64,000 nucleotides of DNA, taken from contig CANJCB010000015.1 in NCBI GenBank assembly GCA_947473305.1, positions 1-64,000 on the forward strand. Reading direction: 5' to 3'. How positions within the stretch are numbered: position 1 is the first letter of the stretch; the number at the start of each line of letters is the position of its first letter. The notes below the pieces were generated by a model. It did no database searches and was not told where the DNA came from. It worked only from the letters and a program-made list of their open reading frames with translations. Both the position numbers and the translations under genes were made by a program. Shown here one piece after another: positions 49,983-64,000 of this stretch. The DNA comes from Rhodospirillales bacterium (GTDB taxonomy: Bacteria > Pseudomonadota > Alphaproteobacteria > ATCC43930 > CGMCC-115725).

Positions 49983-50960
49983 ATGCGCAGGACGATCAGA
50001 GCTGCCGCTTTGGCTATCGGCTTCGGAGGCCTTGTCGCAATTCAGCCGAGTTTGGCGGCGGACAAGGTCAATTTCGTGCTCGACTGGAGTTGGGTGGCCT
50101 ATCATTCGGCCTTCCTGCTGGCGCAGGAGCGCGGCTATTACAAGGACGTCGATATCGATCTCAACCTTGAACAGGGCCGCGGTTCCGCTTCCTCCGCTCT
50201 TTTGGTGGGACAAGGCAGTTTCGACATCGCCCATATCAATATCACCAACGCCGCCCAGGCAGGTGCTAAGGGCATGCCGATCCGGACAGTCGCACTCTAT
50301 CAGCACGGCACGTCTTCGGCCTTCATCGGCATCAAGGGCAAGGTCAAGCTGGACGGACCACAATCCCTGATCGGCCTCAAGATCGGCAGCACGCCCGGCG
50401 GCTCGGATGGTTTCGCCATGGCGATCTTCCGCGAAGCCAACAAAATCCCCGAAAACAAGCTCGACATCGTGGCGCTCGACGCCAACGTGAAGACCGTGGC
50501 GCTGCTCAATGGACAGGTCGACGTGGTGAGCGGCGACAGTCATGCCTATAACGCCATTGTCCGCGGGGCGGGTAAGGAGCCGGAAATGCTCCAATTCTCG
50601 AAATATGGCGTCCCCCTGCTGGGCTTCGGCTTTGCCGCCAACGACAAATACTTTCAAAGCCATAAGGATGTGGTGAAGCGCTTCCTCGCAGCATCGAAGA
50701 AAGGTTTCGCCGAGGCGCAGAAGGATCCAGACGGCGCCTGCGATTTAATCCAGAAGGACGGCAAGCTGCCTGGCAGCCATATGCAATGCGTCCTCTATAT
50801 GACAGGACTCTTCGATCTTTCGACCCCTGCTACGGATGCGAATTGGGGCCGGATGACTGAGAAGGAATGGATCGATCTCCTGGCGACCCTGAAATCCGTT
50901 GGCCAGATCGAGAAAGAACGGCCGGTCGCCGATTACTACTCCAACGATGCGGTGCCCTGA
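49983..50960 (+). CDS. ABC transporter substrate-binding protein (NMT1/THI5 type)
   Basis: A 325-residue binding protein with a signal peptide (RRTIRAAALAIGFGGLVAIQPSLAA). The mature start KVNFVLDWSWVAYHSAFLLA with GYYKDVDIDLN is the NMT1/THI5-like pattern of pyrimidine-precursor and related receptors. SSALLVGQGSFDIAHI follows. It completes the importer encoded just upstream. Its stop overlaps the racemase-like start (TGATG), linking uptake with the two enzymes downstream. Confidence 0.9.
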   Translation: MRRTIRAAALAIGFGGLVAIQPSLAADKVNFVLDWSWVAYHSAFLLAQERGYYKDVDIDLNLEQGRGSASSALLVGQGSFDIAHINITNAAQAGAKGMPIRTVALYQHGTSSAFIGIKGKVKLDGPQSLIGLKIGSTPGGSDGFAMAIFREANKIPENKLDIVALDANVKTVALLNGQVDVVSGDSHAYNAIVRGAGKEPEMLQFSKYGVPLLGFGFAANDKYFQSHKDVVKRFLAASKKGFAEAQKDPDGACDLIQKDGKLPGSHMQCVLYMTGLFDLSTPATDANWGRMTEKEWIDLLATLKSVGQIEKERPVADYYSNDAVP

Positions 50961-51796
50961 TGCGCATCTGGCACCAGGGGCTGGTCGTCATGGACGATGT
51001 GCTCGACTACCGCACCGCCCTCGAAAAGCATATCAAGAACGCGGTCCGACCGGGAACCGAGGTCGTGGTCCATGGCCTCATACCCGGTACCTATACCCGG
51101 GATTATCCTATCGGGGACCTGCAGCACGGCTCTTTCTCTTATATCCACCACACTCAGACCCTTGCCGCGGCAGTTGCGGCGCAGCAGCAGGGTTTCGACG
51201 CCTATGCCATGGGGTTCCTCTCCAGCGGTCTGCTCCAGGAAGCCCGCAGCCTCGTCGAGATCCCCGTGGTCTGCTATGGTGAGGCGGCCTGCCACTTCGC
51301 CTCCTTCTATGGCCAGCGCTTCGGCATGATCCGCTTCGCGCCTGAACTCATCCGCCGGACCGAGGACATCGTCAGGGGCATGGGCTTCGAGAAGAATTTC
51401 GCGGGCGTCGCCCCGGCGGGCTTCACCTATCAGGACATCTTCGGGAAATTCGAGAACGCGGGCGCCACCATCGACCGCTTCAAAGAGACGGTGCGCCGTT
51501 TCGTCAAGGAAACGGGCGCCGACGTCATCATACCCGGCGAGATGCCGATGAATGTCTTCCTGGCCAGCAATGGAGTGAACCGGGTGGACGACGTGCCGAT
51601 CGTCGACGGCATGGCGGTAACGCTTCTCCTGGCCGAAATGATGGTCGACATGCGAGAGCGGCTCGGCCTTTTCCACAGCCGGCACGGTCAGGCCAATATG
51701 GAACCGCCGCAGAAGCGGCTCCGGCAGATCGTCGAGTTCTACGGCATGGAGAAAATCTGGCAGGCGATGGGCGTTGACCCGTCGGCAATGACCTGA
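50960..51796 (+). CDS. Asp/Glu-racemase-superfamily protein (hydantoin racemase-like), catalytic Cys not seen
   Basis: A 278-residue protein that looks like the Asp/Glu/hydantoin racemase and maleate isomerase superfamily: YIHHTQTLAAAVAAQQQGFD, SLVEIPVVCYGEAACHFA and a second lobe with ETGADVIIPGEMPM. The two reactive Cys of racemases are normally in an x-C-x-[DS]-P-G segment and a G-C-x-x-M segment. Here they read AMGFLSSG (about 83-90) and PGEMPM (about 192-197), without Cys. Cys105 and Cys111 remain. So it may be a non-racemising member. It is translationally coupled to the binding protein. Confidence 0.72.
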   Translation: MRIWHQGLVVMDDVLDYRTALEKHIKNAVRPGTEVVVHGLIPGTYTRDYPIGDLQHGSFSYIHHTQTLAAAVAAQQQGFDAYAMGFLSSGLLQEARSLVEIPVVCYGEAACHFASFYGQRFGMIRFAPELIRRTEDIVRGMGFEKNFAGVAPAGFTYQDIFGKFENAGATIDRFKETVRRFVKETGADVIIPGEMPMNVFLASNGVNRVDDVPIVDGMAVTLLLAEMMVDMRERLGLFHSRHGQANMEPPQKRLRQIVEFYGMEKIWQAMGVDPSAMT

Positions 51797-51838
51797 ATAC
51801 AGTTTACCGGCAATAATTTGTTCAAGGGGAGGCTGGCC

Positions 51839-52927
51839 ATGGGTTTTGCGAAAGTCATTTCAGCCGACTCCCATGTGATGGAGCCTCGCGACCTCTGGTT
51901 CAATGCGCTCGCCAAGCGTTACGGCGAGCATGCCCCGCAGCTTCGCAACGAACATCTCGGCAAGCCCGGCACCTTCTTCTATACGGGCGCCCAGGTCATC
52001 AAGGTCACGGAATCCGACCGGGACGCGCAGAAGATCGGCCTCCAGGCGGCTGGCTACGATCCCGCCGTCCGGCTCGACTTCCAGAACCGCGCGGGCGTCC
52101 AGGGCGAGGTGCTCTACGCGACCTTGATGCTGCTCATCATGCGCGGCGAGCAGCGGGCGGTGGTGCGGGCCGCCGCGGCGGTCTTCAACGACTGGCTGGC
52201 GGAATTCTGCTCCCACGACAATAAGCGCCTCTTCGGCGTCGGCATGATCCCCATGGACGATCCCGACTGGGCCGAGGCGGAACTTCACCGCATCGCCAAG
52301 AAGGGTCTGCGGGGCGCCATGATCCATCTGTCCCCGCCCGAGGGCTGCGCGCCCTATCACGATCCGCTCTATGACCGTTTCTGGGCGGCGGCGCAGGATC
52401 TCGACCTGCCGATCACGCTTCATATCGTGGCCGGGCGCTTCCCCGATCCCTTGCATTTCCATACGGCGAAGGAACAGGAAGACGCGCCGCGCGTGCTGCT
52501 CTCGATCCTCTTCGAGGTGATGAACGAGCTTGCCAACGAATTCATCTTCGGCGGCATCCTCGACCGCTTCGAGAAGCTGAAATTGGTCTGCAGCGAGTTC
52601 GAGATCTCCTGGATCCCGAACTTCATGTGGCGCTTGGACCAGATGCAGGACGACTTCGACGGGCGGCTTAATCTGCGCCAGCTCAAGATGAAGGCCAGCG
52701 ACTATATGAAAACGCGGATCTGGCACGGGATCATCGACGATCCCCTGGGCGCCGATGCGATCAAGGCCCTCGGCATCGAGCGGGTGATGTGGGGATCCGA
52801 CTTCCCCCATGTCCGCTCGATCGGGCTCGATGCCCACAGCCGGCTCGCCAAACTATTCGATGGCCTGAATCCCGCCGATCAGGCCAAGCTCATCGAGGGG
52901 AACGTTTGCGGCGTCTACAAGATCTGA
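51839..52927 (+). CDS. amidohydrolase-2 family metal-dependent hydrolase/decarboxylase
   Basis: A 362-residue amidohydrolase-2 barrel. It shows KVISADSHVMEPRDLW (about 5-20), ITLHIVAGRF (His about 191), LKLVCSEFEISWIP and the conserved Asp in VMWGSDFPHVRS (about 319). It is different from the similar enzyme at 43358. The ATG at 51839 follows GGGGAGG; a TTG seven codons upstream is less likely. It follows the racemase-like gene and precedes the Liv-type importer by 13 bases. Confidence 0.87.
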   Translation: MGFAKVISADSHVMEPRDLWFNALAKRYGEHAPQLRNEHLGKPGTFFYTGAQVIKVTESDRDAQKIGLQAAGYDPAVRLDFQNRAGVQGEVLYATLMLLIMRGEQRAVVRAAAAVFNDWLAEFCSHDNKRLFGVGMIPMDDPDWAEAELHRIAKKGLRGAMIHLSPPEGCAPYHDPLYDRFWAAAQDLDLPITLHIVAGRFPDPLHFHTAKEQEDAPRVLLSILFEVMNELANEFIFGGILDRFEKLKLVCSEFEISWIPNFMWRLDQMQDDFDGRLNLRQLKMKASDYMKTRIWHGIIDDPLGADAIKALGIERVMWGSDFPHVRSIGLDAHSRLAKLFDGLNPADQAKLIEGNVCGVYKI

Positions 52928-57500: not shown

Positions 57501-58331
57501 ATGAGGTTTTCCGTCGAAGAAATCATGGGCGCCCGGACCCGTTATCTCATTGGAGGTGAGGGTTCGCCTCTCATACTGGTTCATGGCGTCGGGATGTCGG
57601 CGGATTCCTGGCTGCTGTCGCTTCCCGCTTTGGCCAAGGAATACCGGGTCGCGGCCCCCGATCTTCTCGACAACGGCTTCACAGAATCGGGCCCCTATAA
57701 CGGGGGCCCGCCGCAGCCCTACATCGTCGATCATCTGATCGCCCTGGCCGACCATCTGAAATTCGACCGTTTCACCCTGGTCGGCAGTTCGCTCGGTGCG
57801 ATGATCACGCTCCTGACCTATTTTAAGATCCCCGACCGGATCGACAAGATCGTTCTGGTTGGACCAGGTTCCACCATCTGCCCGCCGCCGGGCTCCAACG
57901 ATCCGCCGGCACTCCAGGGTTCCTACGAGAACGGCAAAAAGGCCATCGAGGACCCAACCTACGAGTCCTGCAAGGCGCGGCTCGGCCGGGTCTTCCACGA
58001 CGCCGCCCGCGTGCCGGACGTGGTGGTCGCCATGCAGATGCTGCTTTATGCGATGCCCGGCGCGATGGAGCAATTCGAGCGTCGGATGGCCGGCTTGCGC
58101 AGCCCGGAAGCCCGCCAATACGAGGTCTTCAGCCGTCTCGGCGAAATCAAGGTTCCGACCCTCGTGCTCACCGGGCGCGAGGATATCCGAGGCAAATTTT
58201 CCGCCATCGCCGAATCGGCAAAACGGCTGCCGAACGGCAAGCTTCTACCCTATGATCGCTGCGGGCATTGGCCCCATATGGAACACCCGGCGAATTTCAG
58301 CCGCGACGTGTTGCACTTTCTGAAGAGCTGA
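57501..58331 (+). CDS. alpha/beta hydrolase (meta-cleavage-product hydrolase-like)
   Basis: A 276-residue alpha/beta-hydrolase. It has the HGVGMSADSW oxyanion segment (about 29-37), nucleophile Ser97 in LVGSSLGAMI, Asp228 in LTGREDIRGKF and His256 in CGHWPHMEHP. This set and length match C-C bond hydrolases of the BphD/XylF group, which split 2-hydroxy-6-oxo-dienoates from extradiol cleavage. An extradiol-type dioxygenase gene follows after 10 bases, which supports the role. Confidence 0.87.
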   Translation: MRFSVEEIMGARTRYLIGGEGSPLILVHGVGMSADSWLLSLPALAKEYRVAAPDLLDNGFTESGPYNGGPPQPYIVDHLIALADHLKFDRFTLVGSSLGAMITLLTYFKIPDRIDKIVLVGPGSTICPPPGSNDPPALQGSYENGKKAIEDPTYESCKARLGRVFHDAARVPDVVVAMQMLLYAMPGAMEQFERRMAGLRSPEARQYEVFSRLGEIKVPTLVLTGREDIRGKFSAIAESAKRLPNGKLLPYDRCGHWPHMEHPANFSRDVLHFLKS

Positions 58332-58341
58332 GAGGATCCCG

Positions 58342-59319
58342 ATGAGCCAGGCCGAAACCCTCGAACGCGCGGCTCAGACCGCGCTCTTCCATCCGCGCCG
58401 CCTCGGGCACGCCAACCTCTATGTGAGCGACTATGAGAAGGCCTTCGACTTCTATCATTCGGTGGTCGGCTTCGAGGAGGTCTATCGCCAGCCCGACAAG
58501 AAGGCGAGCTTCATCAGCAACGGCAACACCTATCACGACTATGGGTTGATGGACGTTCACGGCGACTATCTCGCCAAGGAACCCAAACCCGGCCTCAACC
58601 ATCTCGCCTTCGAGCTCGAGAACGAGGTGGCACTGGTCGAAGGCTATCGCGCAGCGCTCAAGGCGGGCGTGGTCTTCACCTCGACCCAGAACCACGATGT
58701 GGCCCATTCGGCCTATGCCAAGGATCCGGACGGCAATGTGGTCGAATTCTATGCGGATGTCTTCGCCGACTGGCGCACCGCCCGCAGCGGCGTCATTTCC
58801 GGCAAGAAGCCGAAATACGTTCCCGGTGAGACCGACGCGCCCAAGGCCGAGAGCTTCTATCCCGTCAATCCACCGATCCGGAAGGTGGATGCCTCGGTCT
58901 TCCGGGGCCGCACCGTCAGCCACGCCGGTCTCGTCGCGCGGAACTACGAGGAAATGGTCGATTTCTACACCGGCGTCGCCGGCCTGACGCCGGTTGCCGG
59001 AGGGCGCTCCGGTTCCTTCACCCTGCTGCGCGGCAGCTTCGGAACAGGCGATCTCAGCCTTTTCCGCCAAGGGCCGGGCCTCGAAGCCGGCCTTCATCAC
59101 GTGGGCATGGACGCCTGGAGCGAGACTGACCTCGACCGCGCGGTGGCCATGTTGCCGGAGAAGGGCCTGACGCTGGTGCGCGACGTCAGCCATCCTGCCC
59201 GCCGCGCCGTCACGATCAAGGATCCGGACGGCATCGGCCTGCAATTCTACGTCAACCGGCGCTGGGAGCCTTCTGTCATTGCGACGGTCGATGCCGCAAC
59301 CGCCCCTTACCTCCTCTAG
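58342..59319 (+). CDS. two-domain VOC extradiol-dioxygenase-like protein
   Basis: A 325-residue protein of two vicinal-oxygen-chelate domains. Metal ligands in the N-domain are His23 (LGHANL), His87 (LNHLAF) and Glu135 (VVEFYA), a complete 2-His-1-Glu set. In the C-domain the same places are His194 (SHAGL), His252/253 (LHHVG) and Gln301 (GLQFYV), so the Glu is missing. Classical catechol 2,3-dioxygenases use the C-domain, so the active site here may be in the other half. It sits between a C-C hydrolase and a binding protein. Confidence 0.85.
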   Translation: MSQAETLERAAQTALFHPRRLGHANLYVSDYEKAFDFYHSVVGFEEVYRQPDKKASFISNGNTYHDYGLMDVHGDYLAKEPKPGLNHLAFELENEVALVEGYRAALKAGVVFTSTQNHDVAHSAYAKDPDGNVVEFYADVFADWRTARSGVISGKKPKYVPGETDAPKAESFYPVNPPIRKVDASVFRGRTVSHAGLVARNYEEMVDFYTGVAGLTPVAGGRSGSFTLLRGSFGTGDLSLFRQGPGLEAGLHHVGMDAWSETDLDRAVAMLPEKGLTLVRDVSHPARRAVTIKDPDGIGLQFYVNRRWEPSVIATVDAATAPYLL

Positions 59320-59331
59320 GAGACCGCAACC

Positions 59332-60354
59332 GTGAGGCTTTTCGGCGTCGCCCTTTCCGCTGTCCTGCTCGCAGCGAGCACCGTCGCCTGGGCCCAACCC
59401 AAGACGGCGGACGGTCTGCGTATCGTGAAATTCGGCACCGTGGGCGGGACGACCGACGCCGGTCTCGTCATCGCCGACGAGATGGGCTTCTTCAAGGATT
59501 TGGGCATCAAGCTGGAATTGAACCGGATCGGCTCCGGCCCAGCCCTTCTGGCAGCCGTCGTGACCGAGCAGATCGATGGCGGCGGCGTCTCGCTCACCCC
59601 CGGCCTCTTCGCCGCGGCGCAACAGGGCGTGAAGCTCAAGCTCGTGGGCGACAAGCAGAGCTACAGCCCCGGCTTTTCCTCGTCCTGGGTCGTTGCCCGA
59701 CCGGAATATGTGAAGGCGACAGTCAAGGAGAGCTTCGTCGCCCTCAAGGGCAAGAAGATGGCGATCAATTCCAAGGGCACTATCGCCTATATGGCGCTGC
59801 TCGACGCCTTCAAGTTCTATGGCCTCGAGCCCAAGGACATCAATGTGGTGGAACTGGGCCATCGCGACATGATGCCGGGCCTCGCCAGCGGCGCCGTCGA
59901 AAGCGCCTATATGCTGGAACCCTTCATCACCCAGAGCGTGAAAGCCAACATCGGCAAGGAGGTTTCCGACCTGATGGATGTGCGCTCCCCCGGCTCGACC
60001 GCCGTGCCGATCGTCTATGGCGAGAAATTCGCTGCCGACACCAAGTCCGCCAACGCCTTCATGCTGGCCTATATGAAAGGCGTTCGCGCCTATAACGACG
60101 CCTATCGCAAGGACATCGACAAGGAGAAGGTTGTCGGCATGATCGCCCGCTATACGAAGCTCGATCCGGCGCTGATCCGCGACAGCCATCCAACCGCGCT
60201 CGAGCCCAACCAATATGTGAACCAGCCCTATATCGAGGAGGTCGAGAGGTTCTTCATGTCGCTGGGCTCGCTCCGGGCGATCACGCCGGCCAAGGAGATC
60301 GTCGATCCGTCTTTCGCGAATGAGGCGGTCAAGATCCTCGGCGAATATAAGTAG
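59332..60354 (+). CDS. ABC transporter substrate-binding protein (NMT1/SsuA type)
   Basis: A 340-residue binding protein with a signal peptide (LFGVALSAVLLAASTVAWAQ) and an NMT1-like body: IVKFGTVGGTTDAGLVIADE, GFFKDLGIKLELNRIGSG, LAAVVTEQIDGGGVSLTPG. The start is GTG at 59332, 12 bases after the VOC gene, with AGGAG upstream. The ATPase and permease that most likely complete its importer lie 2.7 kb downstream (63031 and 63858), with four redox genes in between. Confidence 0.88.
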   Translation: MRLFGVALSAVLLAASTVAWAQPKTADGLRIVKFGTVGGTTDAGLVIADEMGFFKDLGIKLELNRIGSGPALLAAVVTEQIDGGGVSLTPGLFAAAQQGVKLKLVGDKQSYSPGFSSSWVVARPEYVKATVKESFVALKGKKMAINSKGTIAYMALLDAFKFYGLEPKDINVVELGHRDMMPGLASGAVESAYMLEPFITQSVKANIGKEVSDLMDVRSPGSTAVPIVYGEKFAADTKSANAFMLAYMKGVRAYNDAYRKDIDKEKVVGMIARYTKLDPALIRDSHPTALEPNQYVNQPYIEEVERFFMSLGSLRAITPAKEIVDPSFANEAVKILGEYK

Positions 60355-60369
60355 CGGCGGAGGTCACTC

Positions 60370-61065
60370 ATGGCCCTCACGACAACGGACGTGCTGGAGA
60401 CGATCTCCCGGCTCAACGCCGAAAGCGGCCGGAAGGCCCATCCTCTCTATAGGGCGCTGGAGGACGGCGGGCTGAACCGCGCGCAGCTGCGGTACTTCTG
60501 CCTGCAGAACAGCGTGATCCCACTCTACAACCACAACCTCCACGGCCGGATGTATGTCTCCTGCCCCGATCCTGAGTTCCGCGAGAAACTCGCCGAAGTG
60601 GGATACGAAGAGGCGACCGGCCGGATCTATGCGGATGGAATCCCGCATTACAAACTCTACATCAACCATGCCAAGGCCTTCGGCATCACCCGCGAAGAGC
60701 TTTATTCGGTCGACTACTGCGCCGGTGCCGACACGGTGCTGCTCTTCCTCTCCGACGCCTGCGACCGCTTCATCGAGGGCGTGGCCGCAGTCATGCTGGT
60801 GGGCGAAGCGCAGGGGCCGGGCTCCGATGGCCGCATCGCCCAGACGCTGCAACGCGAGCATCACCTCTCCGACGAAGAAGTCGCCTTCTACGTCGTCCAT
60901 GACAAGGCAGATGAGGACCACGGCGACGTGGGCCGCTTCCTCCTGGAAAAATTCGTGAAGAGCGACGCCGAGCGTCAACTCATGATCGACGTCGCCGCCA
61001 AATCCAACAAGATCCGCCGCCGCATGTACGACGAGGTCTGGTCGAACATGCAAGGCTTGGCTTAG
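60370..61065 (+). CDS. haem-oxygenase-like di-iron oxidase (HDO) family protein, copy A
   Basis: A 231-residue all-helical protein of the PqqC/TenA/CADD-like superfamily. Likely metal ligands are Glu80/81 (YEEATGR), His93 (IPHYKL), Glu146 (LVGEAQ), His177, Asp181 and His184 (VVHDKADEDHGD). The H-x3-D-x2-H pattern matches CADD and other HDO enzymes, which use a di-iron cluster and O2 on amino acids, fatty acids or quinone precursors. A copy of the same length lies at 61982, with an aspartate-dehydrogenase-like gene between. PqqC- or TenA-like cofactor-free roles are less likely because the acidic ligands are kept. Confidence 0.82.
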   Translation: MALTTTDVLETISRLNAESGRKAHPLYRALEDGGLNRAQLRYFCLQNSVIPLYNHNLHGRMYVSCPDPEFREKLAEVGYEEATGRIYADGIPHYKLYINHAKAFGITREELYSVDYCAGADTVLLFLSDACDRFIEGVAAVMLVGEAQGPGSDGRIAQTLQREHHLSDEEVAFYVVHDKADEDHGDVGRFLLEKFVKSDAERQLMIDVAAKSNKIRRRMYDEVWSNMQGLA

Positions 61066-61104
61066 AACTCTTTCCCGGCTCTCGTTACATCAGGATTCAC
61101 CCTC

Positions 61105-61965
61105 ATGTCGTCATCGGTTACCGCATTGCATCCCGCACCCAAAGCTCAAACCGCAAGGCCTATGACCAGGGTCGCCATCGCCGGCCTCGGCGCGATCGGT
61201 GCGGCGCTGGCGCGGAAGCTGGGCGCTGGCGAAATACCGGGGATCGAGTTGGTCGCCGTTTCGGCGCGGGATCACGACAAGGCGCGGGCGACTCTCGGCG
61301 TTTCGCTGTCCAAGCTTCCGATCCTCTCCTTGAGTGAACTTGCCTCGGTGGCGGATGTGGTCGTCGAATGTGCCCCGGCAGCGATCTTCGAGCAGATCGT
61401 CCGGCCGGTGGTGGAAGCTGGCAAGAAGGCGATGGTCCTGAGCGTCGGCGCGCTGCTCTCCCACTACGACCTCGTCGAAGTGGCGCGCGTGAACGGCGGC
61501 CAGATCATCGTGCCGACCGGCGCGCTCCTCGGCCTGGACGCCGTGGGTGCGGCGGCCGAAGGCAAGATCAACAAGATCACCATGGAAAGCCGGAAGCCTC
61601 CCGCGGGTCTGATGGGTGCGCCTCACCTCATCGAGCACAAGATCAACATCGAGGGCCTCAAGGAACCGCTGCGGGTCTTCGAAGGCACCGCGCGAGAAGC
61701 CGCCAAGGGTTTCCCCGCCAATCTCAATGTCGCCGTCGCCCTCTCGCTCGCCGGCATCGGCCCGGACAACACGCGGCTGGAGATCTGGGCCGATCCGACG
61801 ATCACCCGCAACACCCATCGCATCACCATCGACAGCGACAGCGCCCACATCGACATGAAGATCGAGAACATCCCCAGCGAAAACCCCAAAACCGGGCGGA
61901 TCACCGCGCTGAGCGTTATCTCGGCGTTGCGCAAGCTCACCAGCCCGCTTCGCGTCGGCACCTGA
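61105..61965 (+). CDS. L-aspartate dehydrogenase (NadX)-like protein
   Basis: A 286-residue protein of the AspDH (DUF108) family: Rossmann motif VAIAGLGAIGAALA (about 23-36), VVECAP, SVGALLSH, VPTGALLGLDA, and the C-terminal catalytic region WADPTITRNTHRI with His238, then NIPSENPKTG. The family makes iminoaspartate from aspartate (first step to NAD) or runs in reverse. No nadA or nadC is near; instead it lies between two di-iron oxidase-like genes, so it may make or use an amino- or imino-acid in their pathway. An alternative start is 61162. Confidence 0.87.
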   Translation: MSSSVTALHPAPKAQTARPMTRVAIAGLGAIGAALARKLGAGEIPGIELVAVSARDHDKARATLGVSLSKLPILSLSELASVADVVVECAPAAIFEQIVRPVVEAGKKAMVLSVGALLSHYDLVEVARVNGGQIIVPTGALLGLDAVGAAAEGKINKITMESRKPPAGLMGAPHLIEHKINIEGLKEPLRVFEGTAREAAKGFPANLNVAVALSLAGIGPDNTRLEIWADPTITRNTHRITIDSDSAHIDMKIENIPSENPKTGRITALSVISALRKLTSPLRVGT

Positions 61966-61981
61966 GAGCGAGGAAAAGACC

Positions 61982-62677
61982 ATGGCGCTCACCACCTCGG
62001 ACGTGCTGGAAGCCGTCACGGAGATGAACCGCAAGAGCGGCCGCAAGAGCCATCCGCTCTATCAGGCGTTGGAGGCGGGCGATGTCAACCTTGCCCAGAT
62101 GCGTTACCTCTGCAAGCAGATGAGCATCATCCCGCTCTATAACCACAATATGCATGGGCGGATGTATGTGGCCTGTCCCGATCCGGAACTCAGGGAACGC
62201 CTCGCCGAGGTCGCCTATGAAGAGGCCACGGGCCGGATCTATGCGGACGGCATCCCGCATTACAAACTCTACATCCACCACGCCGAAGCCCTTGGCATCA
62301 GCCGAGAGGAACTCTACGCCACCGAATATTGCGCCAGCGCAGAAGGCATGATGCTTTTCCTGTCCGACGCCTGCAGCCGCTTCCTGGAGGGTGTCGCCGC
62401 CGTCTCGCTCGTGGGCGAAGCGCAGGTGCCGGGCCTCGCCAACCGCATCGCCCAGATGCTTCAGCGCAAGTTCGGTCTCGACGACAAGGGCGTCGCCTTT
62501 TTTGTGGTGCATGACAAGGCCGACGAAGATCATGGCGATGCGGGCCGCAGCATGCTCGACCGCTTCGCCAAGACCGAAGAACAGCGCCAACTCGTGATCG
62601 ACGTGGCCCGGAAATCCAACAAGATCCGCCGCGCGATGTTCGACGAGATCTGGACCACCGCCCAAAGTCTCGCTTGA
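61982..62677 (+). CDS. haem-oxygenase-like di-iron oxidase (HDO) family protein, copy B
   Basis: A 231-residue paralogue of the protein at 60370, alignable end to end without gaps, with all candidate ligands at the same places (Glu80/81, His93, Glu146, His177, Asp181, His184). Differences cluster at about 33-48, 114-125 and 148-166, parts that would line the substrate cavity or the subunit contact. The start lies 16 bases after the AspDH-like stop. The two copies could form a heterodimer or catalyse successive oxidations. Confidence 0.82.
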   Translation: MALTTSDVLEAVTEMNRKSGRKSHPLYQALEAGDVNLAQMRYLCKQMSIIPLYNHNMHGRMYVACPDPELRERLAEVAYEEATGRIYADGIPHYKLYIHHAEALGISREELYATEYCASAEGMMLFLSDACSRFLEGVAAVSLVGEAQVPGLANRIAQMLQRKFGLDDKGVAFFVVHDKADEDHGDAGRSMLDRFAKTEEQRQLVIDVARKSNKIRRAMFDEIWTTAQSLA

Positions 62678-62703: not shown

Positions 62704-63006
62704 ATGGCAGAAATCATCCTGAACCTGAACGACATCCCCGATGGCGGGGCAAAGATCGTCGAGGCGGATCCCCGGCAGAAAATCGCCGTCTTCCGGGTCG
62801 GCGACAGATGTGCCGCGATCCTCAACCGCTGTCCCCATGCCGGGGGCTCGCTCGGCGAGGGTCCCTTCGACGGAACGACAGTCAAGTGCCCGCTGCACGC
62901 CTTCCGGGTGGACGTCTGGAAAGGCGTCGGCAATGCCGGCAAGCCCGTAAAGAAGTATGCGGTGCAGGTCGAGGGCGACAAGGTCTCGATCACCGTTCCC
63001 GAATAA
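62704..63006 (+). CDS. Rieske-type [2Fe-2S] ferredoxin
   Basis: A 100-residue soluble Rieske protein: cluster ligands Cys43-x-His45 (RCPHAGG) and Cys62-x2-His65 (KCPLHAF), with 16 residues between. It resembles the ferredoxin components of aromatic dioxygenases (BphF/CarAc type). In this position it could pass electrons to the two HDO proteins or serve the ring-hydroxylating oxygenases at 15-17 kb and 35-36 kb, which lack their own. No ferredoxin reductase gene is in the window. Confidence 0.9.
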   Translation: MAEIILNLNDIPDGGAKIVEADPRQKIAVFRVGDRCAAILNRCPHAGGSLGEGPFDGTTVKCPLHAFRVDVWKGVGNAGKPVKKYAVQVEGDKVSITVPE

Positions 63007-63030: not shown

Positions 63031-63861
63031 GTGGCCGATACCGTGACCGACGCCCTGCGCCCCTTCGCCCTCGACCTCACCAATATTCGCAAAGTCTTTT
63101 TCGCGCGCCAGCAGGCGGTAGAGGCCATTTCCAATGTCTCGCTCCGCATCCAGGAGGGCGAAGTGGTCGCGGTGCTTGGACCGTCCGGCTGCGGCAAGAG
63201 CACCTTGCTGCGCATCCTCGCGGGCCTCGACACGGATTTCACGGGCACTCTCGACTGGGGCCATGTGGACGGCTCGACGGACAAGGAGCGCTTGCGCAGC
63301 GCGACCGTCTTCCAGTCCGATTCGACCTTTCCCTGGCTCGATGCGCGGAAGAACGTGCTGATGGGTCTTTCAGGCTTGACGCTCGACCGAAAGACCGCGG
63401 CGGCGCGGGCCGACACCTATCTCAACCTCGTCGGCCTCGGCGCCTTCCAAAAATCCTATCCCCACGAGCTTTCAGGTGGGATGCGGCAGCGCGTGGCCAT
63501 CGCCCGCGCGCTTGCCACCGAGCCGCTGCTTCTCTTGATGGACGAGCCCTTGGCGGCGCTCGACAGCCAGACCCGGCTCGTCATGCAGCAGGAATTGCTG
63601 CGAATCTGGGCCAAGACCCGCTCGACCGTCGTCTATATCACCCACGACATCGGCGAGGCGCTGACGCTCGCCGACCGGATCGTCGTAATGACCGCGCGGC
63701 CTGGCCGTATCAAGGCGATCGAGACAGTGCCCTTCGGGGCGGACCGCAACGTGATCGCCCTGCGGGGCGAACCCGAATTCGGGCGGCTTGAGGTCGCTCT
63801 TTGGCAACTCCTTGCCGATGAAGTCGGCCAGACCCTGCAACAGCAGGAACTCGCGTCATGA
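63031..63861 (+). CDS. ABC transporter ATPase (nitrate/sulfonate/taurine type)
   Basis: A 276-residue ATPase: Walker A GPSGCGKSTLLRILAGL (about 50), FQSDSTFPWLDARKNVLMGL (Q-loop), signature ELSGGMRQRVAIARAL (about 148), Walker B LLLMDEPLAALD. The start is GTG at 63031, preceded by GGGAGG. Its stop overlaps the next permease start (ATGA). It most likely serves the binding protein at 59332. Confidence 0.9.
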   Translation: MADTVTDALRPFALDLTNIRKVFFARQQAVEAISNVSLRIQEGEVVAVLGPSGCGKSTLLRILAGLDTDFTGTLDWGHVDGSTDKERLRSATVFQSDSTFPWLDARKNVLMGLSGLTLDRKTAAARADTYLNLVGLGAFQKSYPHELSGGMRQRVAIARALATEPLLLLMDEPLAALDSQTRLVMQQELLRIWAKTRSTVVYITHDIGEALTLADRIVVMTARPGRIKAIETVPFGADRNVIALRGEPEFGRLEVALWQLLADEVGQTLQQQELAS

Positions 63862-64000
63862 CCGAAGCGGTGGTCGCCGATCTTGGCACATTGCGCGATG
63901 CCGATCGTCAGCGCCGCCGGAAGACGAAGCAGCTCCAATTCGTTCTAGGGATCGGCTTCCCGATCTGCCTGCTGGTAGTCTGGGAAATCCTGACCCGGAC
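63858..64000 (+). CDS. ABC transporter permease, N-terminal part (cut by window end)
   Basis: An open frame begins at ATG 63858, overlapping the ATPase stop, and runs off the right edge after 47 codons. The translation starts MTEAVVADLGTLRDADRQ and goes on with a basic stretch (RRRKTK), then the hydrophobic helix FVLGIGFPICLLVVWEIL, as in permeases of the SsuC/TauC group. Only the first helix is visible. Confidence 0.75.
   Translation, partial: MTEAVVADLGTLRDADRQRRRKTKQLQFVLGIGFPICLLVVWEILTR

Follow-up and report, generated by a model that had tools for sequence, protein, structure and literature searches.

The window analyzed here, a stretch of 64,000 nucleotides (contig CANJCB010000015.1, positions 1 to 64,000, assembly GCA_947473305.1) from a Rhodospirillales bacterium, carries an operon with two paralogous genes for candidate heme-oxygenase-like diiron oxidases (HDOs), named here HDO1 and HDO2. 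Our comparisons support the conclusion that the split between the two, as seen at the sequence level, is old and maintained. With moderate confidence, we propose that HDO1 and HDO2 are two homomeric diiron oxidases that would catalyze different steps of one aromatic catabolic pathway, with the product of an adjoining Rieske ferredoxin gene as the electron donor.

Divergence of HDO1 and HDO2

Both proteins are encoded on the plus strand, start with ATG and consist of 231 residues. They align without gaps and have a common MALTT-D-VLE start, as described in the initial annotation; 161 of the 231 positions are identical (70%, E = 6e-130). The genome contains nine PF14518 genes, that is, seven beyond HDO1 and HDO2, and eight of these genes belong to the HDO1/HDO2 subfamily.

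In a maximum-likelihood tree of 31 proteins, HDO2 is the sister of an HDO encoded on another contig of the same genome (C59:13630-14325; 98% protein identity to HDO2 and 69% to HDO1) with support of 98/92, and HDO1 stands outside this pair, within a 100/100 group of three. Forcing HDO1 and HDO2 to be sisters costs 9.7 log units and is rejected by the approximately unbiased (AU) test (p-AU 0.030). The Nei-Gojobori estimates of synonymous and nonsynonymous divergence (dS and dN, respectively), in which all dS values are high and approximate, are 0.92 and 0.21 for HDO1 and HDO2, 0.76 and 0.21 for HDO1 and the C59 protein, and 0.59 and 0.015 for HDO2 and the C59 protein (dN/dS ∼0.03). The latter two genes differ in 63 synonymous codons and in five amino acids, which indicates very strong constraint.

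We found no conversion tract between HDO1 and HDO2. The longest identical run is 24 nt, and as shuffling of synonymous columns yields such a run in 22% of draws (P = 0.22), there is no sign of conversion. We reject a recent local duplication with conversion on the basis of the tree, the dS and the run-length test. A tree with recent within-genome duplication and free conversion, which the initial annotation had set against its own proposal, was looked for and not obtained; instead, HDO2 pairs with the C59 copy. The same annotation had suggested specialized subunits or sequential reactions. As both copies are still constrained, specialization or sequential steps are reasonable, while the notion of heterodimer subunits did not hold up (see below).

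The HDO1 branch is longer than the stem of HDO2 and the C59 protein (0.34 vs. 0.14). We do not claim accelerated evolution of HDO1, since the relative-rate counts are mostly balanced, with chi-square exceeding 3.84 for only two of the 12 outgroups. At several positions where at least 90% of the subfamily share one residue, the clade of three has a different one, namely H16N, W27Y, Y57L/M, L61M, W70F/L, and S185G.

Metal ligands and fold

Both proteins exceed the curated PF14518 cut-off of 28.9 bits (scores in Table 1). They also match the broad fold-level family TENA_THI-4 in Pfam, with scores of 29 and 31 bits against a cut-off of 22, more weakly than PF14518. The residues listed in the initial annotation (Glu80, Glu81, His93, Glu146, His177, Asp181, and His184) are all found in HDO1 and HDO2. 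Glu80 and Glu81 are both invariant in an alignment of 15 sequences, and comparison with CADD points to Glu81, rather than Glu80, as the probable metal ligand. The resulting set of three histidines and three carboxylates (E81, H93, E146, H177, D181, and H184) is complete in HDO1, HDO2, and the C59 protein. However, it is intact in all 31 aligned members, these three and 28 others, so that a complete set does not by itself argue for special roles, and the retention of all ligands, read earlier as a sign of specialized function, does not discriminate.

The AlphaFold2 models are confident (pLDDT 91.8 for HDO1 and 90.1 for HDO2). In a Foldseek search with the HDO1 model, the best match was CADD, with TM scores of 0.81/0.87, in agreement with a heme-oxygenase-like helical fold; PqqC, FlcD, BesC, UndA, and TenA were also matched. 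By analogy with established HDO biochemistry, HDO1 and HDO2 are expected to be dimetal proteins that consume O2 and electrons.

The differences between HDO1 and HDO2 had been described as clustered in a few segments. Mild clustering is present (window variance 4.89 vs. 2.98 in shuffled data, p = 0.023), but a confinement to few segments is weak. HDO1 and HDO2 differ at residues 43 (F/L), 78 (G/A), 142 (M/S), 149 (G/V), and 174 (Y/F); these are three to four positions away from a ligand or match a CADD active-site position. Since such a handful is about what an overall difference of 30% predicts, we claim no enrichment of changes beside ligands.

Structure of the operon

The operon genes follow each other in the order given in Table 1, with intergenic gaps of 15-39 bp from the substrate-binding protein gene through the ABC ATPase gene. 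Within the operon, no terminator-like signals above chance were seen and no reductase gene was identified. As annotated initially, the two HDO genes are separated by another gene, a single open reading frame of the aspartate-dehydrogenase family.

Table 1. Genes of the HDO operon in the window.
Feature	Position	Strand	Evidence
Alpha/beta hydrolase, related to meta-cleavage-product C-C hydrolases	57501..58331	+	PF00561, 83 bits
Two-domain VOC protein, extradiol-dioxygenase-like	58342..59319	+	PF00903, 87 bits; 9wgj catechol dioxygenase, E = 2.5e-7
SsuA/NMT1-type substrate-binding protein of an ABC importer	59332..60354	+	PF13379, 70 bits; TIGR01728, 81.9 bits, under cut-off
HDO1, heme-oxygenase-like diiron oxidase candidate, 231 aa	60370..61065	+	PF14518, 53.3 bits
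NAD(P) oxidoreductase of the aspartate-dehydrogenase family, between HDO1 and HDO2	61105..61965	+	NF009825, 403.5 bits (cut-off 253)
HDO2, paralogous diiron oxidase candidate, 231 aa	61982..62677	+	PF14518, 69.9 bits
Rieske [2Fe-2S] ferredoxin	62704..63006	+	PF00355, 40.9 bits; CPH...CPLH motif in translation
SsuB-type ABC ATPase	63031..63861	+	PF00005, 113 bits
SsuC-type permease, cut by the window end	63858..64000 (runs on to C15:64688)	+	PF00528, 66.4 bits for the full gene

The best solved relatives of the hydrolase are meta-cleavage-product hydrolases (2d0d with E = 6e-28, 1iun, 4lxg, and BphD). For the VOC protein, the top NCBIfam matches are HpaD and catechol 2,3-dioxygenase, at scores far below the equivalog level (60.3 and 55.3 bits vs. 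cut-offs of 321 and 320). The aspartate-dehydrogenase-family protein has PF01958 and PF03447 matches, and its solved relatives include TM1643 (1j5p).

In addition, just upstream of a Liv transporter and the HDO operon are a gene of the Asp/Glu-racemase family and, after it, one of the amidohydrolase-2 type (50867-52927). These two genes may belong to the same pathway.

Putative catabolic neighborhood and candidate redox partner

In this genome, four of the five VOC homologs lie within 5 kb of an HDO gene, against 0.08 expected, and so do three of the four hydrolase homologs (0.07 expected); due to the paralogy of C15 (the window contig) with C59 and of contig C1 with C41, these counts are less than independent. 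The association of VOC and HDO genes is also seen, in a weaker form, in three other genomes, two of which show the hydrolase association as well. Genes of the LigB type, for FAA hydrolase, and for Rieske ring hydroxylation are located at further HDO loci.

An HDO gene followed by a Rieske ferredoxin gene occurs at two distant loci, the window and L017. At L017, a relative of HDO2 is directly followed by a ferredoxin 63% identical to that of the window. By homology, the window ferredoxin is likely the redox partner of HDO2 and perhaps of HDO1. L017 (9782-11672) comes from a metagenome-assembled genome (MAG) named Bordetella parapertussis, a name that looks doubtful; its HDO, Rieske ferredoxin, and VOC genes are consecutive and are flanked by two large RidA-family genes.

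RidA-family genes are found near HDO genes both at L017 and on contig C21 and, together with the aspartate dehydrogenase of the window, hint at imines. We rejected the aspartate dehydrogenase as a conserved partner of HDOs, since its closest plasmid relatives have no adjoining HDO gene. A second aspartate-dehydrogenase gene of the genome (L041, G000:C16:43781-44047) is on a contig where no HDO genes were found. Judging by the neighboring genes, the substrate class is probably aromatic and probably nitrogen-bearing.

Relatives and other loci

No member with more than 60% identity was found in another genome; the sets compared, which overlap, numbered 39 genomes for the family, 43 for the order, 385 for the class, and 398 for the phylum. 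A scan of 84,980 species with short exact peptide patterns, which can miss relatives, yielded three relatives, at 50-53%. Beyond the present genome, none of those searched contained the HDO1/HDO2 pair. The subfamily was found in seven of the 385 genomes of the class, and four genomes have 8, 10, 8, and 3 subfamily genes. Plasmid-borne origin was considered and dropped, as HDO2 gave one distant plasmid match only.

In two alphaproteobacterial MAGs, G198 (locus L018) and G295 (L019), three or four HDO genes are clustered with two VOC genes and with genes for transporters and a hydrolase. Each cluster has an adjacent HDO pair, in which orthologs are 80% and 89% identical across species and neighbors are ∼53% identical to each other. 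This is the pattern expected of a maintained functional split, here in relatives. The region L076 (G295:C84, 6804-19378) comprises four HDO, two VOC, one hydrolase, and two aldo/keto-reductase-like genes with an ABC importer, and is largely conserved in G198:C34.

The HDO2 sibling is located in a rearranged second locus of the same genome (L010, C59, 8715-14863), together with a LigXa-type Rieske oxygenase and a dienelactone hydrolase; the contig ends soon after. The VOC protein and the hydrolase of C59 are 84% and 66% identical to those of the window, respectively, and more diverged than HDO2 and the C59 HDO, and the flanks of the HDO2 and C59 genes are unrelated (45% and 33%). The genome has a second duplicated HDO and VOC module on contigs C1 and C41 (L015 9494-11391 and L016 8180-9909), where the HDOs are 89% identical and each adjoins a VOC gene. 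HDO and VOC genes in divergent orientation are arranged alike in two genomes (G198:C75:1153-2888 and G067:C33:1594-3376). At L082 (1031-2554), two distantly related HDO-like genes (236 and 240 aa, ∼27% identity to HDO2) lie in tandem, close to genes for an alpha/beta hydrolase and for a Liv-type binding protein.

Proposed explanation and alternatives

We suggest that an old duplication gave rise to HDO1 and HDO2 as separately evolving enzymes of one catabolic operon, and that HDO2 has a counterpart, changed very little, in another gene cluster of the genome. Each would most likely form a homo-oligomer with its own O2-dependent step, the two acting sequentially or on different intermediates. 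The pathway would degrade an imported, probably nitrogen-containing aromatic compound, and the Rieske ferredoxin would pass electrons to HDO2 and perhaps to HDO1. Going by homology, an imine or amino-acid intermediate would be the substrate of the aspartate-dehydrogenase-like protein, and downstream steps would fall to the extradiol-like VOC protein and the meta-cleavage-type hydrolase. A broader version, that an uncharacterized HDO subfamily was recruited into meta-cleavage-type aromatic catabolism, with two to four paralogs per operon, fed by Rieske ferredoxin, for successive oxidations of N-aromatic compounds, is offered tentatively. In the literature searched, nothing relevant was found on HDOs in aromatic catabolism, and neither a catabolic multi-HDO pathway nor an HDO with a Rieske ferredoxin partner was found described.

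Several observations weigh against this explanation. The rejection by the AU test is of moderate strength (p = 0.03), the clade consists of three members from a single genome, and dS is near saturation. The VOC protein scores well under the extradiol cut-offs, adjacency of HDO and Rieske genes is known from two loci, and, as relatives of the aspartate dehydrogenase occur in operons that lack HDOs, its connection with the chemistry of HDOs may be coincidental. Finally, the nearest solved enzymes, p-aminobenzoate (pABA) synthases, are only ∼20% identical.

The main rival holds that the two copies are largely redundant, that is, gene-dosage or substrate-range duplicates performing the same reaction on similar compounds. 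A 70% identity with identical ligands agrees with this, as do the richness of the genome in HDO duplicates, including the 89% identical pair on C1 and C41, and the approximately equal number of changes unique to the HDO1 and HDO2 branches relative to outgroups. On the other hand, dN for HDO1 and HDO2 exceeds that for HDO2 and the C59 protein by a factor of 14, but dS by a factor of just 1.6; the copies have been retained for long with conversion undetected; and the five residues listed above differ near ligands or the active site, though no more often than elsewhere. Overall, redundancy seems rather unlikely to us. The heterodimer considered in the initial annotation, a single enzyme composed of HDO1 and HDO2, is improbable in our judgment, whether both sites would be active or one of them would serve regulation. 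The equal length, the gap-free alignment, and the common operon would suit such an enzyme, and since known HDOs dimerize, a mixed dimer is physically possible (PMC11363339). However, full ligand sets are present in both copies, and the solved HDO structures are homodimers or homotetramers, homo-oligomers being the rule among the HDOs described (PMC11363339, PMC13185094). Moreover, the HDO2 type occurs without an HDO1 partner on C59, and a relative of HDO2 stands alone at L017. In principle, HDO1 of the window operon could serve as a partner of the C59 protein within the cell. Because of the singleton loci, a heterodimer is not favored as the default.

The HDOs could also be non-catabolic and make a cofactor or signal, like the pABA synthase CADD or PqqC, their position in the operon being accidental. 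The closest solved relatives by both sequence and fold are indeed pABA synthases and PqqC. Moreover, the tyrosine consumed in CADD, Tyr27, is a tyrosine in HDO1 and HDO2, as well as in the C59 protein, and tryptophan in all 28 other members. Still, Lys152 of CADD aligns with Ile156, and its essential Tyr43 aligns with Phe or Leu (roles according to PMC11965152). The scores for TIGR04305 (51 and 70 bits vs. a cut-off of 200) and for TIGR02111 (24.3 bits for HDO2 vs. 240, no match for HDO1) are far too low, and the VOC and hydrolase neighbors recur. We have dismissed a CADD-type pABA synthase in view of the missing signature residues, and regard any such cofactor or signal role as very unlikely.

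Under the explanation that we prefer, two separate enzymes of one catabolic pathway, the main novelty is the setting. Members of the subfamily repeatedly have extradiol-like VOC proteins and meta-cleavage-type hydrolases as neighbors, and some clusters contain three or four HDO genes. The subfamily is tied to ring-cleavage-type genes and expanded within single genomes. The adjoining Rieske ferredoxin provides a testable candidate for a redox partner of HDOs. How identical ligand sets support different reactions has been named an open problem (PMC13108848), and the 70% identical pair with a nearly frozen third copy offers a clean system to address it.

Comparison with known HDOs

The closest solved structures, the self-sacrificing pABA synthases CADD and NePabS (PMC11965152), have the ligand set and Tyr27 in common with HDO1 and HDO2, but their essential Tyr43 and Lys152 are replaced (Phe43/Leu43 and Ile156) and the identity is ∼20%. 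In mangotoxin biosynthesis, MboA requires MboB, a flavin/[2Fe-2S] reductase (PMC13185094). Similar to the window operon, an HDO gene adjoins a gene for an iron-sulfur redox protein, although the neighbor in the window is a stand-alone Rieske ferredoxin, whereas MboB combines flavin and [2Fe-2S] in one reductase.

In fluopsin C biosynthesis, two HDOs, FlcE and then FlcD, act in sequence (PMC11363339). Thus two HDO genes serve one pathway, as HDO1 and HDO2 likewise share one operon. By contrast, FlcD has an extra N-terminal domain and has lost two metal ligands (PMC11363339), while HDO1 and HDO2 are single-domain proteins with full ligand sets and 70% identity.

The HDO superfamily is growing fast and has more than 10,000 predicted members, of which about a dozen, mainly from biosynthetic pathways, are characterized (PMC13108848). 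Like UndA, BesC, SznF, AetD, HrmI, and MboA (PMC13108848), HDO1 and HDO2 belong to PF14518 and combine the helical fold with the three-histidine, three-carboxylate ligands. Unlike them, the HDO1/HDO2 type is found in catabolic clusters with ring-cleavage-type genes, with several copies per genome.
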